From Shewanella maritima (GTDB taxonomy: Bacteria > Pseudomonadota > Gammaproteobacteria > Enterobacterales > Shewanellaceae), in the NCBI RefSeq assembly GCF_004295345.1, contig NZ_CP036200.1, positions 2,588,501 through 2,652,500 of the forward strand: DNA of 64,000 nt, in the 5' to 3' direction. The notes beneath the pieces were generated by a model that was not told the origin of the DNA, did no database searches, and saw only the letters and a program-made list of their open reading frames with translations. A program made the translations under genes and the position numbers. Below are positions 1 through 19,600 of the stretch, piece by piece (within the stretch, counting starts at the first letter, position 1; each line of letters opens with the position of its first letter).

Positions 1-3000
1 AGCGTTCCTGCAAATACCCATATTGATGTTTATAAGGACTTACAGTTTTTGTTTAATTTTCTTGATAACGACAAGCTCAACGAATTGAGCGATAAACTCA
101 AATCCATGTTCGATGATAACGCAGAGCAAGCAAAAGCGAGTGTGGCAACCAAGTCATCTACCCCGAGTCACCAAACCGCCCAAGTAAAACCTAGTGCCGA
201 ACAGCCAACTGCTGAAGATAAGGTGCATGTTGCTACCGCTGAGTACAGTAATTTAGATGTTTCAAGCTTTCTACCTTCAGATACGCCAACTAAAAGTACT
301 ACAACTAAAAAGAATAGAAAATCAATGGCTTTTACCGATTTGCAATCAGCTTATGCCGAGCTAGATAACGCTTCAAAGCATATCATTCAAGAACTTGCCG
401 TAATGGCAGCGGCTAAATACTTTACTGAAAATAGTGACAGCACTCATGAAGACATGGGTTCTGCCAAGGTTGTTGATGATAAAGCGCTGCTTGGTGCCTT
501 TTTAGCCAGTAGACCTTTGTTAAATGCATTGGCAGAGCGCTTTGGGTGCCAGCACTACCAAATCGTGTTCCCACCAGTTGTGTATGAGCAAAGGTTACAG
601 CTAGAGCAAGTCGCCGAGACCCGTAGCTTTGGCGAGCCGACGACAACCTGGTATCAATTGGCAAAACGCAATGCTCCCAAATTAAGATTTCCGCAAATAA
701 TAAAGGAATGTTTGCTTAGTGCTATATCTGCCGATGGCAAGCTCGACGTAGCGGAGTTTGTTGATAGTCTTTGCAATAGCAATATTGCCTTATTTGAGCT
801 GCTTAAGCAGCAAAACCAGGTCGCCAACCGCCTGATAAATTCAGCGCAAACTAGTCAACGAATGAAAAAGGCGTTGGCTGATAAAGTGATTGGTCAGTCT
901 TATGCGATTGAGCAGTTATGCCAGGGGTATTTAAGCTCATGTATTGAAACTCATAGCGGGCCAAGAGCGATTTATACTTTTCTTGGACCATCTGGTGTAG
1001 GTAAAACCTATTTGGCTACCGAGTTTATCGATGAGCTAAACGCGTGTGAAGGCAGTGGCTACCAGTATAAGATGTTTAAGATGGAAGGTTATTGCGATAA
1101 GCGCGATCCATCAAAGTTATTTGGTAGTGGTATTCAGTACATAGATGCTAGCTTAGGAACCTTAACCTCTTTTGTTCGTGCTAACCCTCGCAGCGTGTTG
1201 ATTTTTGATGAAATAGAAAAAGCTCACCCCAATGTGATTCAGTCGTTATTGTCGGTGCTGGATAGCGGTATTGCTAAAGACAATACCAGTCAGGAAGATG
1301 TCGACTTCAGTCAGTGCTTTATCTTGTTCACATCTAATCTAGGCCAGGACTTACTTGCAAGTAAGCCGCAAAACAAACAGCTCAGTGTGTTTGACGTGCT
1401 ATCTAGCTCAGTGGCAAATGGCAGTAATACCCGATTATCGCCAGAGTTTATTAACCGTCTGGCAAAAGGTAACGCAGTAATGTTCTCACCATTAAAGGTG
1501 AATCATTTATTGGCGTTAGCCGAACGCAGTCTGCGGTCGAGTCAAGAGCAAAAAGGGTTGAGTTATCATTGGCCTGAAAACTTTGCCAGTTTTATGCTTA
1601 AAACCATGGCGCCTGATTTATCAGTGCGCAGACTTAACGGCCGTTTGTCACAGCTGCAATCACAACTGCTTACTCAAGGTGCAAGCCTGTTAGATGCCAA
1701 CAGATCTGAGCTTGAGATTACCGTTGATGTCGAGACGAAGCCGTTAATGGAGCCCTGTCAGCCAAGTATTCTGGTACTCGACGACGACCCTAGAGTATTT
1801 AGTGCGTTAAATGAATTACCAGCAGAGTACAACTGTCACCTGTGCGACGAGCCGACTCAGTTATCGGCCCTGGTAAGTCAGGTTCGCCCTGACGTGTTAT
1901 TACTTGATTTACAACTCGTTGAAAAACTAGGTCAACCACTAGATAGCTATTTAGCGCAGCATTTAGCTGATGTACCGCTAATGCCTATTTTTACCTACCA
2001 GCTGCTATCAGGTTATGAAACACATAAGCCTACAGGGGCTGATGTGCTTGCCAGTTGTCATGATATTCGTGAACACTTTAATCTCATCCCGGCACAAGAA
2101 AACTGGCTGACTAGTATGCTGACTGTTGTGAGTGATGAGTTGCATATGGAGCGAAGCTTGCAGCAAATGCAGCGCAGGAACTTGCAGCTCGATTACCAAT
2201 TAACAATGCAGTCATCGACGAGCGGGTTAAGTGTATGCTATCACGAGCTAGGCTATGTGCAGCAAGTGCAAAGTCAGGATGTCCGCTGTGACGAGCTATT
2301 TAGTCATGATGTGCCCACAGAAACGCTAGCCGATGTTGTTGGGCTAGAGCGTGCGAAAGATCGTTTAACTCAGGTATTGCAGTGGCTTAAGTCGCCACAC
2401 CAGCTTGCCGCGTACAATGTCAAACCTCCGAGTGGTTTCTTGTTTGCCGGTCCATCTGGCACTGGAAAAACCTTGCTGGCAAGAGCCCTTGCTGGCGAAA
2501 GCCAGTTGCCTTTCTTTAGTGTGTCATCATCAAGCATATCTGCGTCGCATTCAGGTGGCAGTGCTGACAATATTAAAAAACTGTTTGCTGCAGCGAGGCG
2601 CTATGCTCCATCAATAGTGTTTATTGATGAAATAGATGCTATCGCGGGGCAAAGAACAAGTGGCGAAAGCAGTGCTGATAAAGACCGTAACCTAACGGTT
2701 AATGCCTTGCTCACTGAAATGGATGGCTTTGATCAGTCTGCCGGGCAAGTGTTTGTTATGGCTGCGACCAACTTACCAGAGTTATTAGACTCCGCCTTGA
2801 TGCGTCCTGGGCGCTTTGATGAAACCATTTATTGTGACTTACCTAATAGTGCCGCAAGAAATGCGTTCTTTAAACGCTTTGCAGATAAATACCAATTACC
2901 CCTAAGTGATGAGTTGCTTATCGACTTGGTAAGTGCGTCGCGTGGCATGTCGGCAGCGCAAATTGAGCAGGTTTTCAGAGAGACAATCTATAGCGCAGTT

Positions 3001-3633
3001 AGCGAGGGCAAAGAAGTGACTTTTGCCAACTTGCAACAAACCATGATCCGGGTTAGTTACGGCACTCCGTCTGAAAATATTTCGATGTCGGATGAGGAGA
3101 AAAAACGCACAGCGTATCATGAAGCAGGGCACTTGTTGGTCTCAAAGCTGTTGTTCCCAAATCGTGAAGTAGACTTTGTTACCATTGAACCCCGCAATCA
3201 AGCGTTAGGGTTTGTGGCTCTGCGACCAAGTGAAAGCTATGAAAGCTTGTCTAAAACCACAGCTATGTCGCACCTTGAAGTTATGCTCGCGGGACGCATG
3301 GCTGAGAAAATTCTAACCGGTAATAGTGACGAGGTGAGTGCTGGTGCCAGTAATGACATTGAAAAAGCCACTAACCTAGCCATGCACGTGATTTACGAAG
3401 CTGGGCTAGATGAAGAGTTGGGGCCGCTTAATATCAAGCTATTAACCCGCTATGAGGAAAGTGACTTATTGTTGCAAGCTCAGCAAAGCGTACGCAACTG
3501 GCTAGTGACCGCCGAGCAAAGTGTCGAGCTTCGTTTAGTCAGCCATAAGCCTTTGCTTGATAAAATCGCTGATGCGCTAACTACTCATGAGTCATTGTTA
3601 GCTGAGCAAATTAATGCTTTGTTTGAAGATTAA
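1..3633 (+). CDS. Clp-like AAA+ / receiver-like / FtsH-like AAA+ M41 protease fusion, 5' partial
   Basis: The frame is open from base 1 to the stop at 3633. Numbering from the TTG at 49, the protein has a low-complexity Ser/Thr/Lys N-terminus (about 20-95) and a helical region (95-280). A Clp D2-type AAA+ domain follows: Walker A GPSGVGKT 313-320, Walker B IFDEIEKAHP from 385, sensor-1 N430, PEFINR arginine finger 465-470. A receiver-like domain has acidic residues 578-580, D620 as phosphoacceptor candidate and no clear conserved Lys. After a coiled-coil-like linker comes an FtsH-type AAA+ domain (Walker A 801-808, D860-E861, MRPGRFD) and an M41 peptidase (HEAGH 1024-1028, third zinc ligand D1103). 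No transmembrane segment is visible. Inferred role: a soluble ATP-dependent protease or remodelling factor under signal input. TTG 49 with AAGGA upstream could be a start, but upstream codons read as protein, so the true start is probably outside the window. I do not know a characterised homologue. Confidence 0.82.
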   Translation, partial: SVPANTHIDVYKDLQFLFNFLDNDKLNELSDKLKSMFDDNAEQAKASVATKSSTPSHQTAQVKPSAEQPTAEDKVHVATAEYSNLDVSSFLPSDTPTKSTTTKKNRKSMAFTDLQSAYAELDNASKHIIQELAVMAAAKYFTENSDSTHEDMGSAKVVDDKALLGAFLASRPLLNALAERFGCQHYQIVFPPVVYEQRLQLEQVAETRSFGEPTTTWYQLAKRNAPKLRFPQIIKECLLSAISADGKLDVAEFVDSLCNSNIALFELLKQQNQVANRLINSAQTSQRMKKALADKVIGQSYAIEQLCQGYLSSCIETHSGPRAIYTFLGPSGVGKTYLATEFIDELNACEGSGYQYKMFKMEGYCDKRDPSKLFGSGIQYIDASLGTLTSFVRANPRSVLIFDEIEKAHPNVIQSLLSVLDSGIAKDNTSQEDVDFSQCFILFTSNLGQDLLASKPQNKQLSVFDVLSSSVANGSNTRLSPEFINRLAKGNAVMFSPLKVNHLLALAERSLRSSQEQKGLSYHWPENFASFMLKTMAPDLSVRRLNGRLSQLQSQLLTQGASLLDANRSELEITVDVETKPLMEPCQPSILVLDDDPRVFSALNELPAEYNCHLCDEPTQLSALVSQVRPDVLLLDLQLVEKLGQPLDSYLAQHLADVPLMPIFTYQLLSGYETHKPTGADVLASCHDIREHFNLIPAQENWLTSMLTVVSDELHMERSLQQMQRRNLQLDYQLTMQSSTSGLSVCYHELGYVQQVQSQDVRCDELFSHDVPTETLADVVGLERAKDRLTQVLQWLKSPHQLAAYNVKPPSGFLFAGPSGTGKTLLARALAGESQLPFFSVSSSSISASHSGGSADNIKKLFAAARRYAPSIVFIDEIDAIAGQRTSGESSADKDRNLTVNALLTEMDGFDQSAGQVFVMAATNLPELLDSALMRPGRFDETIYCDLPNSAARNAFFKRFADKYQLPLSDELLIDLVSASRGMSAAQIEQVFRETIYSAVSEGKEVTFANLQQTMIRVSYGTPSENISMSDEEKKRTAYHEAGHLLVSKLLFPNREVDFVTIEPRNQALGFVALRPSESYESLSKTTAMSHLEVMLAGRMAEKILTGNSDEVSAGASNDIEKATNLAMHVIYEAGLDEELGPLNIKLLTRYEESDLLLQAQQSVRNWLVTAEQSVELRLVSHKPLLDKIADALTTHESLLAEQINALFED

Positions 3634-3766: not shown

Positions 3767-4780
3767 ATGCCCGTCTCTTTACAGCAATACAATACTCTAG
3801 GGCTAGCGCAGTCATGCCAAGCACTAGAAGTCATTGAGTCTAAATCACAGTTAGTCACAGCGTGCCAGCAGCTCAAAGTAAACAATACGCCTATGTTGAT
3901 ATTAGGCGGTGGCAGCAACGTGATTTTAACCGCTGATTTTGCTGGCACATGCCTACAAATGAATAGCAAAGGCATAGAAGTTCATCAGGTTGACGGCGGT
4001 GTAGAGTTGATGGTGCAGGCGGGTGAAGACTGGCATCAATTAGTCGAGTTTTGCTTAGCGCATGGTTATTACGGCCTAGAGAATCTGGCGTTGATCCCGG
4101 GCACCGTTGGCGCGGCGCCAATTCAAAATATTGGGGCGTATGGCCTCGAGTTAAGCCAGTTTTGTCGCTCTGTCGAGTATCTAGACCTTGAGTCGCTCAC
4201 TTTCAAAACGCTAAATAACAGTCAGTGCGAGTTTGCCTACCGAGATTCGGTTTTCAAGCATCAGTTAAAAGAAAAGGCGATCATTAGCGCTGTGACCTTG
4301 TTTATCCCCAATGATTGGCAACCGAACCTGAGTTATGGTCCGCTAACTCATTTAATCGGTACAGATGTTAGCGCTAAGCAGGTATTTGATTGTGTGTGCG
4401 CAACGCGCATGAGTAAGCTGCCCGACCCTAAAGTGCTGGGTAATGTCGGCAGCTTTTTTAAAAATCCGATTATTGATGGGCAACAGTTTGCTGAGTTAAA
4501 ACAGCGGTTTGACGGGATTGTCGGCTATGAGCAAGACAACGGTTCGGTGAAAGTTGCTGCCGGTTGGTTAATCGATAATGCGGGTTTGAAGGGGTATCAG
4601 CAAGGTGCAGTCGGTGTTCATCATCAACAAGCGTTAGTGCTAGTGAATTTGGGTGGTGCAAACGGCGCGGATATCCGCGCTTTGGCGCATTACGTTGTTG
4701 AGGTCGTCGAACGTAAGTTTGCTATTCGTTTACATGCAGAGCCGAGAGTGTTTGGCGAACAAGGAGAGATAAGCCTATGA
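3767..4780 (+). CDS. murB: UDP-N-acetylenolpyruvoylglucosamine reductase
   Basis: MurB is the cytoplasmic FAD-dependent reductase that uses NADPH to convert UDP-GlcNAc-enolpyruvate to UDP-MurNAc in peptidoglycan synthesis. The 337-residue protein has the FAD-binding segment LGGGSNVIL near residue 45 and the GLENLALIPGTVGAAP block. The catalytic residues fall at the same numbers as in E. coli: R159 (YRDS), S229 (NVGSFF) and E325 (HAEPRVFG). It is therefore a type I enzyme of normal length. The ATG at 3767 has an AAAGG-like ribosome site. The stop overlaps the start of birA by 4 bp (ATGA), so the two are translationally coupled, as in E. coli. Confidence 0.97.
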   Translation: MPVSLQQYNTLGLAQSCQALEVIESKSQLVTACQQLKVNNTPMLILGGGSNVILTADFAGTCLQMNSKGIEVHQVDGGVELMVQAGEDWHQLVEFCLAHGYYGLENLALIPGTVGAAPIQNIGAYGLELSQFCRSVEYLDLESLTFKTLNNSQCEFAYRDSVFKHQLKEKAIISAVTLFIPNDWQPNLSYGPLTHLIGTDVSAKQVFDCVCATRMSKLPDPKVLGNVGSFFKNPIIDGQQFAELKQRFDGIVGYEQDNGSVKVAAGWLIDNAGLKGYQQGAVGVHHQQALVLVNLGGANGADIRALAHYVVEVVERKFAIRLHAEPRVFGEQGEISL

Positions 4781-12330: not shown

Positions 12331-12494
12331 GCGCTTTAAGCGCAGGCGATTTTTTTTCACCGTTTATCGCCAATTATTAGCAGTCCCTAGCAGAGATTAC
12401 TGGTTAGGTTCTTGCATCAACGGTGATGGGCAAACGTGCTGATTTAATTAAGTTTATTTCAGTCTTGGTCACATCTCGTAAGCAGAGGAAACCC

Positions 12495-15400
12495 ATGGTT
12501 TACTCCTATTCTGAAAAGAAGCGTATTCGCAAAGACTTTGGTAAGCGTCCTAAAGTTCTGGACATCCCTTACCTACTGTCTATCCAGTTAGACTCTTTTA
12601 AGAAGTTCACCGATCAAGACCCTACGGGTGAACGTGGCTTAGAAGCCGCATTCCGTAGCGTTTTTCCTATCAAGAGCTTTTCTGGCTATAGTGAGCTGCA
12701 ATATGTCAGCTACAAGCTAGGTGAGCCAGTTTTTGATGTGAAAGAATGTCAGATCCGCGGTGTTACCTATTCAGCGCCATTACGCGTAAAACTACGCATG
12801 GTACTGTTTGACCGTGAAGCTGCTGCTGGTACTGTAAAAGATATCAAAGAGCAAGAAGTCTATATGGGTGACATCCCATTAATGACTGAAAATGGTACTT
12901 TCGTTATCAATGGTACTGAACGTGTAATTGTTTCTCAGTTACACCGTAGTCCGGGTGTATTCTTCGATCACGACCGTGGTAAAACCCACTCTTCAGGTAA
13001 GGTGCTGTATAACGCACGTATTATTCCTTACCGTGGTTCATGGTTGGATTTCGAATTCGATCCAAAAGATGCATTATTCGTACGTATTGACCGTCGTCGT
13101 AAACTACCTGCGACTATCATTCTGCGCGCATTGGAATACTCGACTCAAGAAATTCTAGACTTATTCTTCGAACGCACTGAGTTCAAGATTAAGAAAGACT
13201 CATTAGTGATGAAGCTAGTTCCTGATCGCCTACGTGGTGAAACTTCTAGCTTTGACATTAAAGATTCTGAAGGCAATACGCTAGTTGAAGCGGGTCGCCG
13301 TGTTACTGCACGTCACATTCGCCAGCTAGAGAAAACTAACACAACAGATCTTGAAGTACCAGTTGAGTACATCGTTGGTAAGTTTGCTGCGCAAGATTAC
13401 ATCGACGAAGATACTGGTGAAGTATTAGTTTCAGCAAATGCCGAAATCACTTTAGAAGACCTAGCTAAGCTTTCATTAGCAGGCATCAAAGCCGTTGACA
13501 CTCTGTTTATCAATGACCTTGATCACGGTGCTTACATTGCTGACACCCTACGTATCGATTCAACAACTAACCGCCTAGAAGCGCTAGTTGAAATCTATCG
13601 TATGATGCGCCCTGGTGAGCCACCAACCAAGGAAGCGGCAGAAAGCTTATTCCAAAACCTATTCTTCAGCGACGAGCGTTATGACCTATCTAAAGTAGGT
13701 CGTATGAAGTTCAACCGTCGTCTAGAAATGGCTGAAGATGAAGGCGAAGGCATTCTGTCTAAAGAAGACATCGTTGCGGTAATGAAGAAAATCATTGATA
13801 TTCGCAATGGTTTCGACGAAGTCGATGATATCGACCACCTTGGTAACCGTCGTATTCGCTCTGTGGGCGAAATGGCAGAAAACCAATTCCGCGTTGGTCT
13901 AGTTCGTGTTGAGCGTGCTGTTCGTGAGCGTCTATCTTTAGGCGACCTAAACGAGCTAATGCCACAAGACCTAATTAACGCTAAGCCAATTTCTGCGGCA
14001 GTGAAAGAATTCTTCGGCTCTTCACAGCTGTCTCAGTTCATGGACCAAAATAACCCGCTATCAGAAGTGACGCACAAGCGTCGTATTTCTGCATTAGGCC
14101 CAGGTGGTTTGACTCGTGAACGTGCTGGCTTCGAAGTACGTGACGTACACCCGACTCACTATGGTCGTCTATGTCCGATTGAAACACCTGAAGGTCCAAA
14201 CATTGGTTTGATCAACTCTTTGGCAAGTTTCGCACGTACTAACTCATACGGTTTCCTAGAAACACCTTACCGCAAAGTGGTAGACGGTGTGATCACTGAC
14301 GAAGTGGAATACTTGTCAGCGATTGAAGAAGGTCGTTATGTTATTGCACAGGCAAACATTGAAGTTGATAAGAACGGCCGCATGGTTGAAGAGCAGATTG
14401 CATGTCGTCACAAAGGTGAATCTACCTTTATGCGCGCAGCTGACATTCAATACATGGACGTTTCGCCACAACAGATTATTTCTGTTGCTGCTTCATTGAT
14501 TCCGTTCCTAGAACACGATGACGCGAACCGTGCATTGATGGGTGCGAACATGCAACGTCAGGCTGTACCAACACTAAGCGCTGAAAAGCCATTAGTCGGT
14601 ACGGGTATTGAGCGTGCATTGGCTGTTGACTCAGGCGTAGTTGTTGCTGCTAAACGTGGCGGTGTAATCGACTATGTTGATGCTAGCCGCATCGTAGTTA
14701 AAGTAAATGAAGACGAGCTTACTCCAGGTGAAGCGGGTATCGACATTTACAACCTAACTAAGTACACCCGTTCGAACCAAAACACTTGTATCAACCAACG
14801 TCCACGTTGTTTCGTTGGTGAGCCAGTGGTTCGTGGTGACGTACTAGCTGACGGTCCTTCAACTGACTTAGGTGATTTGGCACTTGGCCAAAACATGCGT
14901 ATCGCATTCATGCCTTGGAACGGTTACAACTTTGAGGATTCGATCCTTATTTCTGAGCGCGTAGCGCAAGAAGACCGTTTCACGACTATTCACATCCAAG
15001 AGCTGTCATGTATTGCACGTGATACTAAACTTGGTAGTGAAGAAATCACAGCTGATATTCCAAACGTAGGTGAGTCTGCTCTGTCTAAACTAGACGAGTC
15101 AGGTATCGTTTACATTGGTGCAGAAGTGAAAGGTGGCGATATTCTAGTAGGTAAAGTGACACCTAAAGGTGAAACTCAGCTTACTCCAGAAGAGAAGTTA
15201 CTTCGTGCTATCTTCGGTGAAAAAGCGTCTGACGTTAAAGACAGCTCGCTACGTGTACCTAACTCAGTAAAAGGTACCATCATCGACGTTCAAGTCTTCA
15301 CCCGTGACGGTGTTGAAAAAGACAAGCGCGCACTAGAAATTGAAGAAATGCACGTAAGCCAAGCTCGTAAAGACTTAGGCGAAGAGTTCAAGATCCTTGA

Positions 15401-16526
15401 AGAAGGTGTCTTAGACCGTGCACGTAACTTGTTACTGTCTGCTGGTTTCTCTGAAGCAAAACTTGCTGAGATCCCACGTAAAGACGTGTTAATCCAAGTT
15501 ATTGACGACGAAGCGAAACAAACTGAACTTGAGCAGTTAGCTGAGCAGCACGAAGAGCTAAAAGCTGACTTTGATAAGAAGTTTGAAATCAAGCGTCGTA
15601 AGATCACTCAAGGTGATGACTTAGCACCTGGCGTACTGAAGATTGTTAAGGTTTACCTAGCAGTTAAACGTACTATCCAACCTGGTGATAAGATGGCTGG
15701 TCGTCACGGTAACAAAGGTGTTATCTCGAAGATCTGTCCTATTGAAGATATGCCATACGATGAAACTGGTAACCCAGTAGACATCGTCCTGAACCCGCTG
15801 GGTGTACCATCGCGTATGAACATCGGTCAGGTACTTGAAGTTCACATGGGCGCAGCTGCTAAAGGCATTGGTAACCGTATTACCGAAATGCTTGAAGAGC
15901 AACGCGAACTTGCTGAGCTACGTGGCTATATCAAAGAAGTTTATGAGTTAGGTGATGAAGTTCAACAGAAAGTTGACATCGACTCATTCTCTGATGATGA
16001 AGTTGTACGTCTTGCCAAACACCTGAAATCTGGTCTGCCAATCGCAACACCAGCATTCGACGGTGCTAAAGAGAAAGAGATCAAGCAAATGCTTGAACTT
16101 GCAGGCTTACCATCTTCAGGCCAGCTTCGTTTATTCGATGGCCGCACTGGTAACGAATTTGAGCGTGAAGTAACTGTTGGTTACATGTACATGCTTAAAC
16201 TGAACCACTTAGTTGATGACAAGATGCACGCCCGTTCTACCGGTTCGTACAGCTTGGTTACTCAGCAGCCTCTGGGCGGTAAAGCTCAGTTCGGTGGTCA
16301 GCGTTTCGGTGAGATGGAAGTATGGGCACTTGAAGCATACGGTGCCGCTTATACTCTTCAAGAAATGCTTACAGTTAAGTCGGATGACGTTAACGGTCGT
16401 ACTCAGATGTATAAGAACATCGTCGACGGTAACCATCAGATGCAACCTGGCATGCCAGAGTCCTTCAACGTATTGCTGAAGGAGATCCGTTCACTGGGTA
16501 TTAATATCGAGTTGGATCAAGAGTAA
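12495..16526 (+). CDS. rpoB: DNA-directed RNA polymerase subunit beta
   Basis: Beta forms half of the polymerase active-site cleft and the rifampicin pocket. The 1343 residues compare with 1342 in E. coli. The start is the ATG at 12495 ([24 protein letters not shown] upstream), because the earlier in-frame Met at 12423 adds residues without family counterpart. The rifampicin cluster [19 protein letters not shown] is wild type, with D517, H527 and S532 equal to E. coli D516, H526 and S531. Later conserved blocks include [12 protein letters not shown] near 1070 and the C-terminal [18 protein letters not shown]. It is expressed with rplJL through the attenuator and followed by rpoC. Confidence 0.98.
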
Positions 16527-16560
16527 GCATCGCTCTTAAGCAATGTTTTGGTAACCTAAC

Positions 16561-16605
16561 GGTGCTTCGCCCCGTGCGAAGCACCCGGTTTAACTCCTTC
16601 AGGAG
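16561..16605 (+). promoter_or_regulatory. Hairpins in the rpoB-rpoC gap
   Basis: A 9-bp stem GGTGCTTCG/CGAAGCACC (16561-16585) lacks a T run, so it is not a terminator. Beside it CTCC (16594-16597) can pair with GGAG (16602-16605), which covers the rpoC ribosome site. Either could set RNA processing or translation of rpoC. Confidence 0.4.
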
Positions 16606-16611
16606 AGAAAC

Positions 16612-19600
16612 GTGAAAGACTTATTAAAGTTTCTTAAACAGCAAAGCAAGACTGAAGAATTTAACGGTATTAAAATTGGTCTAGCATCGCCAGACCTCAT
16701 CCGTTCTTGGTCTTTTGGTGAAGTTAAAAAGCCAGAAACCATTAACTACCGTACATTCAAGCCTGAGCGTGAAGGTTTGTTCTGTGCGCGTATCTTCGGT
16801 CCTGTGAAAGATTACGAATGTTTGTGTGGTAAATACAAACGTCTTAAGCACCGTGGTGTAATTTGTGAGAAGTGTGGTGTAGAAGTTACCCAGACTAAAG
16901 TACGTCGTGAGCGTATGGGTCACATTGAACTGGCTAGCCCAGTTGCACACATCTGGTTCTTAAAGTCACTTCCGTCTCGTATTGGCTTAATGCTAGATAT
17001 GACTTTACGTGACATTGAGCGCGTACTGTACTTTGAATCATTTGTTGTTATCGAGCCAGGCATGACCTCGCTTGAGCGCGGCCAAATGCTAACGGAAGAG
17101 ACGTACTTAGACGCACTAGAAGAGTATGGTGATGAGTTTGAAGCTAAAATGGGTGCTGAAGCCGTTTTAGACTTACTACGTGGTATTGATTTAGAAGAGC
17201 AAATCGAGCAAATGCGCGAAGAGCTACCTTCAATCAATTCAGAAACTCGTCGCAAGAAAGTGACTAAGCGCCTGAAACTGATGGAAGCATTCTACCAATC
17301 TGGCAACAAGCCAGAGTGGATGATCCTGAAAGTACTACCGGTTCTACCACCTGATCTACGTCCGCTAGTTCCACTAGATGGTGGACGTTTTGCGACGTCT
17401 GATCTTAATGACCTATACCGTCGTGTGATTAACCGTAACAACCGTCTAAAACGCCTATTAGACCTAGCTGCTCCAGACATCATCGTACGTAACGAAAAAC
17501 GTATGCTGCAAGAGTCTGTTGATGCGCTATTAGATAATGGTCGTCGTGGTCGTGCAATTACAGGTTCAAACAAGCGTCCTCTGAAATCTCTTGCTGATAT
17601 GATCAAGGGTAAGCAAGGTCGTTTCCGTCAAAACCTACTTGGTAAGCGTGTTGACTACTCAGGCCGTTCGGTAATTACCGTAGGTCCTACTCTACGTTTA
17701 CACCAGTGTGGTCTTCCTAAGAAGATGGCACTTGAGCTATTCAAACCATTCATCTATGGCAAGTTAGAAGGCCGTGGTCTAGCGACTACGATCAAAGCCG
17801 CTAAGAAAATGGTTGAGCGTGAGCAAGCAGAAGTTTGGGATGTTTTAGACGAAGTAATTCGTGAACACCCAGTGATGCTTAACCGTGCACCAACACTTCA
17901 CAGACTTGGTATTCAAGCATTTGAGCCAGTACTGATTGAAGGTAAAGCAATCCAACTTCACCCGCTTGTATGTGCGGCGTATAACGCTGACTTCGACGGT
18001 GACCAAATGGCGGTACACGTACCATTAACGTTAGAAGCGCAATTAGAAGCGCGTGCGTTGATGATGTCTACCAACAACATTCTGTCACCAGCAAACGGTG
18101 AGCCGGTAATCACTCCGTCTCAAGACGTTGTATTAGGTCTGTACTACACCAGCCGTGAATGCATTAACGGTAAAGGTGAAGGCATGGCATTCGCTTCTGT
18201 AGCAGAAGTTGAAAAAGCTTATGCAACAGGTGCAGCTGGGCTTCACGCTCGCATTAAAGTACGTCTAAACGAAGTAAGCATTGATGATAACGGTGAGAAG
18301 ACAACTTCTACTCGTATCGTTGATACTACTGTAGGTCGTGCATTGCTATCGCTTATCTTACCTGAAGGTCTATCTTTCGACCTTGTTAACCAAAACATGG
18401 GTAAGAAGCAGATCTCGAAACTACTGAACACTTGTTACCGTCAACTAGGTCTTAAAGATACTGTTATCTTTGCTGACCAATTGATGTACACAGGTTTCCG
18501 TTTCGCGACTATCTCGGGTGCTTCTGTTGGTATTAACGACATGGAAATCCCAGCTGAGAAGTACACCCTTGTTGCTGACGCAGAAGCTGAAGTACGTGAA
18601 ATTCAAGAGCAGTTCCAATCTGGTCTTGTAACCGCGGGTGAGCGTTACAACAAAGTGATCGATATCTGGGCAAGCGCGAATGAGAAAGTTTCTAAAGCGA
18701 TGATGGACAACCTGTCTACCGAGACAGTGATTAACCGTGATGGCGAAGAAGAAACTCAAGCTTCATTCAACAGCATCTACATGATGGCTGACTCAGGCGC
18801 ACGTGGTAGTGCTGCTCAGATCCGTCAGCTAGCTGGTATGCGTGGTCTGATGGCGAAGCCAGATGGTTCTATCATTGAAACGCCGATTGTGGCGAACTTC
18901 CGTGAAGGTCTAAACGTACTTCAGTACTTTATTTCTACTCACGGTGCGCGTAAAGGTCTTGCCGATACTGCATTGAAGACAGCGAACTCGGGTTACCTAA
19001 CTCGTCGTCTAGTAGACGTTGCACAAGACTTAGTGGTTATTGAAGAAGACTGTGGCGTAGAACACGGTCTAACAATGAAGCCGCTAATTGAAGGTGGTGA
19101 CGTTGTTGAGCCACTACGTGAGCGTGTACTTGGTCGTGTTGTTGCTCAAGACGTACTTAAGCCTGGTACTGATGAAGTACTTGCACCACGTAATACTCTG
19201 CTTGACGAGAAGTGGTGTGACAAGCTTGAAGAAAACAGCGTCGATGAAGTTGTTGTACGTAGCGTAATTACTTGTGAAACAGACTTCGGTGTGTGTGCTA
19301 AGTGTTACGGCCGTGACTTGGCTCGTGGTCATATTATTAACCACGGTGAAGCAATTGGTGTTGTGGCTGCTCAGTCGATTGGTGAGCCAGGTACACAGCT
19401 TACCATGCGTACCTTCCACATTGGTGGTGCGGCATCGCGTGCTTCTGCTGAGAACAATGTTCAAGTTAAGAACGCAGGTACACTTAAGCTGCATAATGCT
19501 AAATACGTTAGCAATGTTGACGGCAAATTGGTTATTGTTTCTCGTTCAAGCGAGCTGGCTGTTATTGATGAGCTGGGCCGTGAGAAAGAGCGTTACAAGG

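Follow-up and report, generated by a model that had tools for sequence, protein, structure and literature searches.

AAA+ proteases usually combine one type of motor with a peptidase, either in cis as in FtsH and Lon or in trans as in ClpXP and ClpAP. Here, we describe a gene of Shewanella maritima whose product is a single chain with a Clp D2-type AAA+ module, a receiver-like spacer, an FtsH-type AAA+ module and an M41 zinc peptidase site, including the catalytic residues. The gene lies at the beginning of a stretch of 64,000 nucleotides (hereafter, the window; contig NZ_CP036200.1, G000:C1:2588501-2652500). A family search across 5.8 billion proteins gave 1959 matches, and 68 database rows with the same layout were chosen among the best 120 listed; further counts come from a tally of 24 locus copies, which leaves out three additional copies including L077_6 and L087_8. 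The most defensible statement about these proteins is that they form a new two-motor variant of AAA+ protease. Beyond this, we propose with a probability of roughly 0.6 that the protein is a soluble, self-contained ATP-dependent protease in which the Clp ring pulls and the FtsH ring serves mainly as gate and support, and that it acts in defence or stress-triggered proteolysis.

Among described systems, the membrane protease FtsH shares with the family the HExxH motif of M41 and a downstream aspartate ligand (68/68 rows and 24/24 locus copies). Unlike FtsH, the family protein has no transmembrane-like segment, carries an extra Clp motor together with N-domains and lacks the pore phenylalanine in 66 of 68 rows; its score with the NCBIfam model FtsH_fam is 353 bits and does not reach the cut-off of 600. 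The Hsp100 proteins ClpA, ClpC and ClpB share the D2-type AAA+ module with its Walker A and B motifs, pore tyrosine and arginine finger, and a fold that would resemble the Clp N-domain is predicted for the family protein. However, only one Clp-type AAA+ domain was found in the family protein, 59 of the 68 rows (window’s protein included) have no IGF/IGL-like tripeptide, and the peptidase is present in cis; the TIGR models of ClpA and ClpB give 143 and 131 bits against cut-offs of 993 and 1232. The anti-phage system IetAS is similar in that the FtsH-type AAA+ module resembles IetA (PADLOC, 139.9 bits) and that some distant relatives have a subtilisin-like S8 protease encoded by a separate gene nearby (L053:6070-7818, matched by Pfam, with homologues at L088:12433-14166 and L090:16994-18886; related lipoprotein-looking genes adjoin the S8 gene in L053 and L088). 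Unlike in IetAS, the peptidase of the family is of the M41 type and part of the same chain, no S8 gene was recognised by eye adjoining the window’s copy, and the NCBIfam anti-phage IteA/IetA model stays at 120.9 bits (cut-off 510). In the FtsH ternary (vWA-MoxR) conflict systems, Kaur et al. (2020; PMC7159879) describe a protein whose two FtsH-type AAA+ domains include an inactive first one and which is partnered by MoxR and vWA. These systems share an FtsH-type AAA+ domain in a predicted conflict system, but their protein differs from the family protein with its Clp D2 motor, receiver-like domain and M41 peptidase.

Several AAA+ domains followed by M41 are also found in the soluble-looking proteins P0057, P0059 and P0067, but the layout of Clp D2 motor and receiver was not recognised in them and they fall outside the family branch of the tree described below. 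Together with P0062 and P0086, they are of large size, contain between three and six Walker A-like motifs each and represent another multi-motor M41 class that apparently has no name; an HExxH motif lies near the end of P0057, P0059, P0062 and P0067, while the form searched was not matched in P0086. Among the 25 NCBIfam matches listed, none to a characterised family scored above the respective cut-off, and no description of a Clp-FtsH two-motor architecture was found in the open-licence literature (subscription papers and preprints lay outside this search), in line with the statement of a first-pass annotation, made from the window’s letters, that it knew of no described family with both motors and a receiver.

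That annotation had described two different AAA+ motors and a peptidase in one uninterrupted frame, and the description holds: the open reading frame (ORF) has no stop, the hallmark strings that had been named are present in the translation, and Pfam matches to AAA_2 (114 bits), AAA (161 bits) and Peptidase_M41 (113 bits) are above cut-off. Yet the frame is clipped by the window’s edge at its 5' side, and the N-terminus outside the window had been overlooked. In the parent genome, which is closed and consists of one contig of 4,718,011 bases, the frame measures 1364 codons from stop to stop, and its likely start is an ATG at G000:C1:2588129 (L006:9629), 372 bases upstream of the window, a choice that is consistent with the relatives. 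The predicted protein has 1334 residues, as does the nearest database entry, and the window opens exactly with the codon of residue 125. Its domain order is an alpha/beta N-domain, a linker, a Clp N-domain-like fold, the Clp D2-type AAA+ module, the receiver-like domain, the FtsH-type AAA+ module and the M41 peptidase (Table 1); a weak resemblance to 5x1e chain A, from the DotL-IcmS-IcmW complex, covers residues 1-119. No transmembrane-like segment was found, with a maximum 19-residue hydropathy of 1.25 compared to 2.3 for the FtsH of the same genome, which suggests a soluble protein without membrane anchor and agrees with the cytoplasmic location suggested earlier.

So unusual an architecture could in principle reflect two genes joined by an error of annotation or assembly, a concern already voiced in the first-pass annotation, but the genome is closed, the frame is free of stops and relatives with the same layout occur in independent assemblies. 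AAA, AAA_2 and Peptidase_M41 are present in 37/37 family members scanned with Pfam, and in a tree built from 147 FtsH modules (68 of the family, 50 of other M41 proteins and 29 of FtsH from the window’s bacterial family, the Shewanellaceae; quick method, long branches flagged) the 68 rows form one side of a branch with a Shimodaira-Hasegawa-like approximate likelihood-ratio test (SH-aLRT) value of 98. A layout common to 68 rows that form one clade argues for a conserved family and refutes the fusion artefact, to which we assign practically no probability. Divergence of the Clp module is strongly correlated with that of the FtsH module (r 0.94), and the two have thus travelled together, which likewise speaks against a fusion artefact. 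Among the matches listed for the Clp part, the family-like entries P0121 (400 amino acids), P0120 (734) and P0122 (429) are followed by a drop to approximately 113 bits; at this level, entries that carry a name are, with few exceptions, ClpC, ClpB or Clp ATPase subunits; a close stand-alone relative of the Clp part was not found in that search. The short entry P0122 of Vibrio hippocampi, which corresponds to the Clp part only (46% identity), is perhaps a truncated or split relative.

The Walker B acids, arginine fingers, HExxH motif and third aspartate ligand are invariant in 68/68 rows, all tested motor and peptidase residues are kept in 24/24 locus copies, and both motor sites as well as the peptidase site look intact in the window’s protein. 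The pores of the two motors differ, a point that the first-pass annotation had missed along with the Clp N-domain-like fold. While the pore aromatic of the Clp module is Tyr or Phe in every one of the 68 rows, the pore phenylalanine that is important for FtsH function is found in only 2 of the 68 FtsH modules, compared to 29/29 FtsH proteins of the Shewanellaceae. His (32 rows, window’s protein included), Tyr (12) or Trp (3) can take its place, and the pore loop aligns with a three-residue gap in 7/24 locus copies. A non-histidine aromatic is still present in 17/68 rows, so the loss of grip is a tendency and not a rule. Taken together, these pore residues suggest that the Clp ring probably does the pulling. 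The IGF/IGL loop is the ClpP-docking feature of ClpA and ClpX, and because a tripeptide of this kind is mostly absent (the remaining nine rows have VGF directly ahead of SPEF), the working peptidase would be the M41 domain in cis, not ClpP. The chain would then form a hexamer with two coaxial rings: N-terminal parts, with the predicted Clp N-domain-like domain as candidate receptor for substrate or adaptor, would select substrates, the Clp ring would grip and thread them by means of the conserved tyrosine in its pore, and the FtsH ring, with its pore phenylalanine mostly lost, would mainly gate and support the chamber of the zinc peptidase.

The Clp N-domain-like fold and the ClpB/ClpC-like D2 module, for which the nearest relatives outside the family are of ClpC/ClpB type, would also suit a disaggregase and protease fused into one chain, active under heat or protein-damage stress, whose Clp part extracts aggregates and passes them to M41; a DnaK/HscA-like and HscB-like cluster, recognised by eye, adjoins the two related copies L082 and L084. 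We consider this improbable given that Pfam scans found no Clp D1 domain in the chain, that the distribution is sporadic (see below) and that no chaperone was recognised by eye among the few flanking ORFs of other copies.

Some copies depart from the canonical form or come in pairs. Copy L087_8 has a damaged Clp site. At L087:12220-15165 (-), a 981-residue AAA_2, AAA and M41 protein without receiver-like stretch adjoins an intact copy; its Clp site is damaged (FDDIEK; arginine finger lost), and it is possibly a paralogous subunit. Two nearby copies with other genes between them occur in one genome at L073:4529-8434 and 12352-16206 and likewise at L079:8196-11858 and 15408-18998, raising the possibility of hetero-oligomers.

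The receiver-like domain is the weakest part of the architecture, with evidence that is weak but consistent. Its placement between the motors, as given in the first-pass annotation, is backed by a profile of nine copies that matches 28 PDB chains at E <= 1 (20 with response-regulator names; best E 0.014) and by a beta/alpha module at this position of the structure model, but Pfam Response_reg remains at 18.4-18.6 bits (E 0.002), below its 30.2-bit cut-off, and the conserved receiver lysine is not evident in the family alignment. Profile scores are weak for the window’s protein as well, in which the acidic pair, the phospho-acceptor D760 and T789 are present and the lysine is again not evident. 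The acidic residues, D760 and T/S789 are retained in the window’s own subclade, where the domain could still be phosphorylated. Across the family, the phospho-acceptor aspartate alone is kept in 63/68 rows, but only 9/24 locus copies (the window’s and 8 others) have it together with the acidic pair; the other 15 do not have both, some having the aspartate alone. Two-component gating is therefore not general, the earlier description of a signal-gated machine is not supported as stated, and we read the domain in the wider family mainly as a structural or protein-binding element. The retained residues nevertheless leave room for a housekeeping or stress protease gated by receiver phosphorylation and unrelated to defence, which could also draw on the Ser/Thr-kinase-like and ECF (extracytoplasmic function)-type sigma genes adjoining two copies (L049, L073) and on the solitary position of the window’s copy amid core-looking genes. 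Besides the lack of an evident conserved lysine and the 15 incomplete copies, a very sporadic distribution and a non-random linkage to TIR and DUF4062 genes make this alternative unlikely in our view.

The first-pass annotation had suggested examining phylogenetic spread and neighbour genes, and had itself overlooked the neighbourhoods of relatives. These relatives recur in scattered, mostly marine bacteria. Within the Shewanellaceae, 2/152 genomes have the gene (rows whose match reaches the Clp part), and two further genomes with a second match have partial Clp-like matches only. With residues 1-880 as query and E <= 1e-45, it was found in 5/394 genomes of the order, 1/369 of a class-wide sample (own genome only) and 18/395 of the bacterial family of G488, there in 7/52 genera; the samples have genomes in common and count the own genome where it is listed. 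This is an accessory gene of sporadic occurrence that has probably spread horizontally. Four of the 24 loci read for neighbourhoods have phage-type integrases at a distance of up to 6 kb, and a transposase-like gene adjoins one copy.

Over 22 carrier genomes, 3 of 4 DUF4062 genes (0.04 expected) and 5 of 12 TIR_2 genes (0.11 expected) are located within 15 kb of a copy, and 5 of these genomes have a TIR or DUF4062/STAND gene at this distance, far above chance. In G1103, a TIR gene lies between two copies, a DUF4062/STAND gene comes after the pair, and ECF sigma and kinase genes precede the first copy. The copy of G185 has a DUF4062/STAND gene as its neighbour and a TrkA_N gene farther out. Phosphatase-like, sigma and kinase genes stand ahead of the copy in G048, with a DUF4062/STAND gene and a TrkA_N gene (sub-threshold RyR) further upstream. 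The neighbour in G1074 is a TIR-NPHP3-TPR protein, with a gene that has sub-threshold TrkA_N and RyR matches two genes on, and in G1211 a TIR protein. Such nucleotide-binding leucine-rich repeat (NLR)-like neighbours in some bacteria make defence or stress-triggered proteolysis the most likely biology.

Several observations weigh against this assignment. In 17/22 carrier genomes, neither TIR_2 nor DUF4062 lies within 15 kb, a limit that was picked after some neighbourhoods had been viewed; the carriers are related and the assemblies fragmented. One TIR hit contains a stop, copy L077_6 ends early and has no HExxH, PADLOC gives partial domain-level matches only for the protein itself, and 4 of 10 neighbours scanned have no PADLOC match at E <= 1e-4. 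DUF4062 and TIR_2 were not found in the window’s own genome, where the copy is flanked by chromosomal genes of ordinary appearance and inspection by eye revealed no integrase over 9.6 kb upstream. Named by eye, the ORF that precedes it beyond the window’s edge is YeiH-like and lies on the opposite strand, and the order of the ORFs called murB, birA and coaA is conserved in three relatives. A role in defence or stress is thus least certain for the window’s solitary copy, and immune use is a supported hypothesis for some relatives that is unproven for this one. More tentatively, and with clearly less than even confidence, the family might be a new AAA+ protease class with two motors of different descent, a pulling Clp ring and a grip-less FtsH ring holding the peptidase, that provides the immune islands of NLR-like type (TIR, DUF4062/STAND) in marine Gammaproteobacteria with a proteolytic arm.

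Other genes were seen near distant copies. L090:5194-7158 (-) and L087:5683-7788 (-), adjoining two of them, have PADLOC matches to a type II restriction enzyme (93.6 bits) and to a double-AAA protein of IetA-like type (133 bits). Mutually related small proteins of 86-117 amino acids are encoded near the gene at L079:14950-15303, L086:14711-15064, L090:14049-14390 and L081:16840-17100, and several of these or sister loci also have recurring neighbours of approximately 240-262 amino acids, one of which gives a DNA-binding match below threshold.

Table 1. Features of the two-motor protease gene and its downstream neighbour, in window positions (pLDDT, predicted local distance difference test)
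Feature	Position	Strand	Details
Gene (3' 91% in window)	1..3633	+	residues 125-1334 of 1334-residue protein
N-terminal alpha/beta domain, its end	1..153	+	residues 1-175, mostly outside window
Low-confidence linker, probably disordered	154..339	+	residues 176-237; pLDDT <50 over residues 180-226
Clp N-domain-like helical domain (predicted fold)	340..828	+	residues 238-400
Clp D2-type AAA+ module	856..1698	+	residues 410-690
Clp module sites	Walker A 985-1008; pore 1138-1140; Walker B 1204-1221; Arg finger 1456-1458	+	pore Tyr504; Arg finger R610
Receiver-like domain	1750..2124	+	residues 708-832; acidic residues 718-720, D760, T789; conserved lysine not evident
Long helix and beta hairpin from receiver-like domain to second motor	2104..2262	+	residues 826-878; structure model (model residues 688-711, 714-740)
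FtsH-type AAA+ module	2296..3063	+	residues 890-1145
FtsH module sites	Walker A 2449-2472; pore 2548-2550; Walker B 2626-2637	+	pore position 974 (His, not Phe); Arg fingers R1059, R1062
M41 zinc peptidase	3085..3618	+	residues 1153-1330; HEAGH 3118-3132; third ligand D1243 3355-3357
murB-like ORF, downstream neighbour (named by eye)	3767..4780	+	

A Clp motor placed ahead of an FtsH motor in one natural chain would offer a direct view of how unlike motors divide unfolding and translocation between them, and this chain suits the question because the pore grip of its FtsH module is mostly lost while the ATPase site is kept. If the linkage to TIR and STAND genes holds, the family would add a processive unfolding protease to the NLR-like systems of bacteria.
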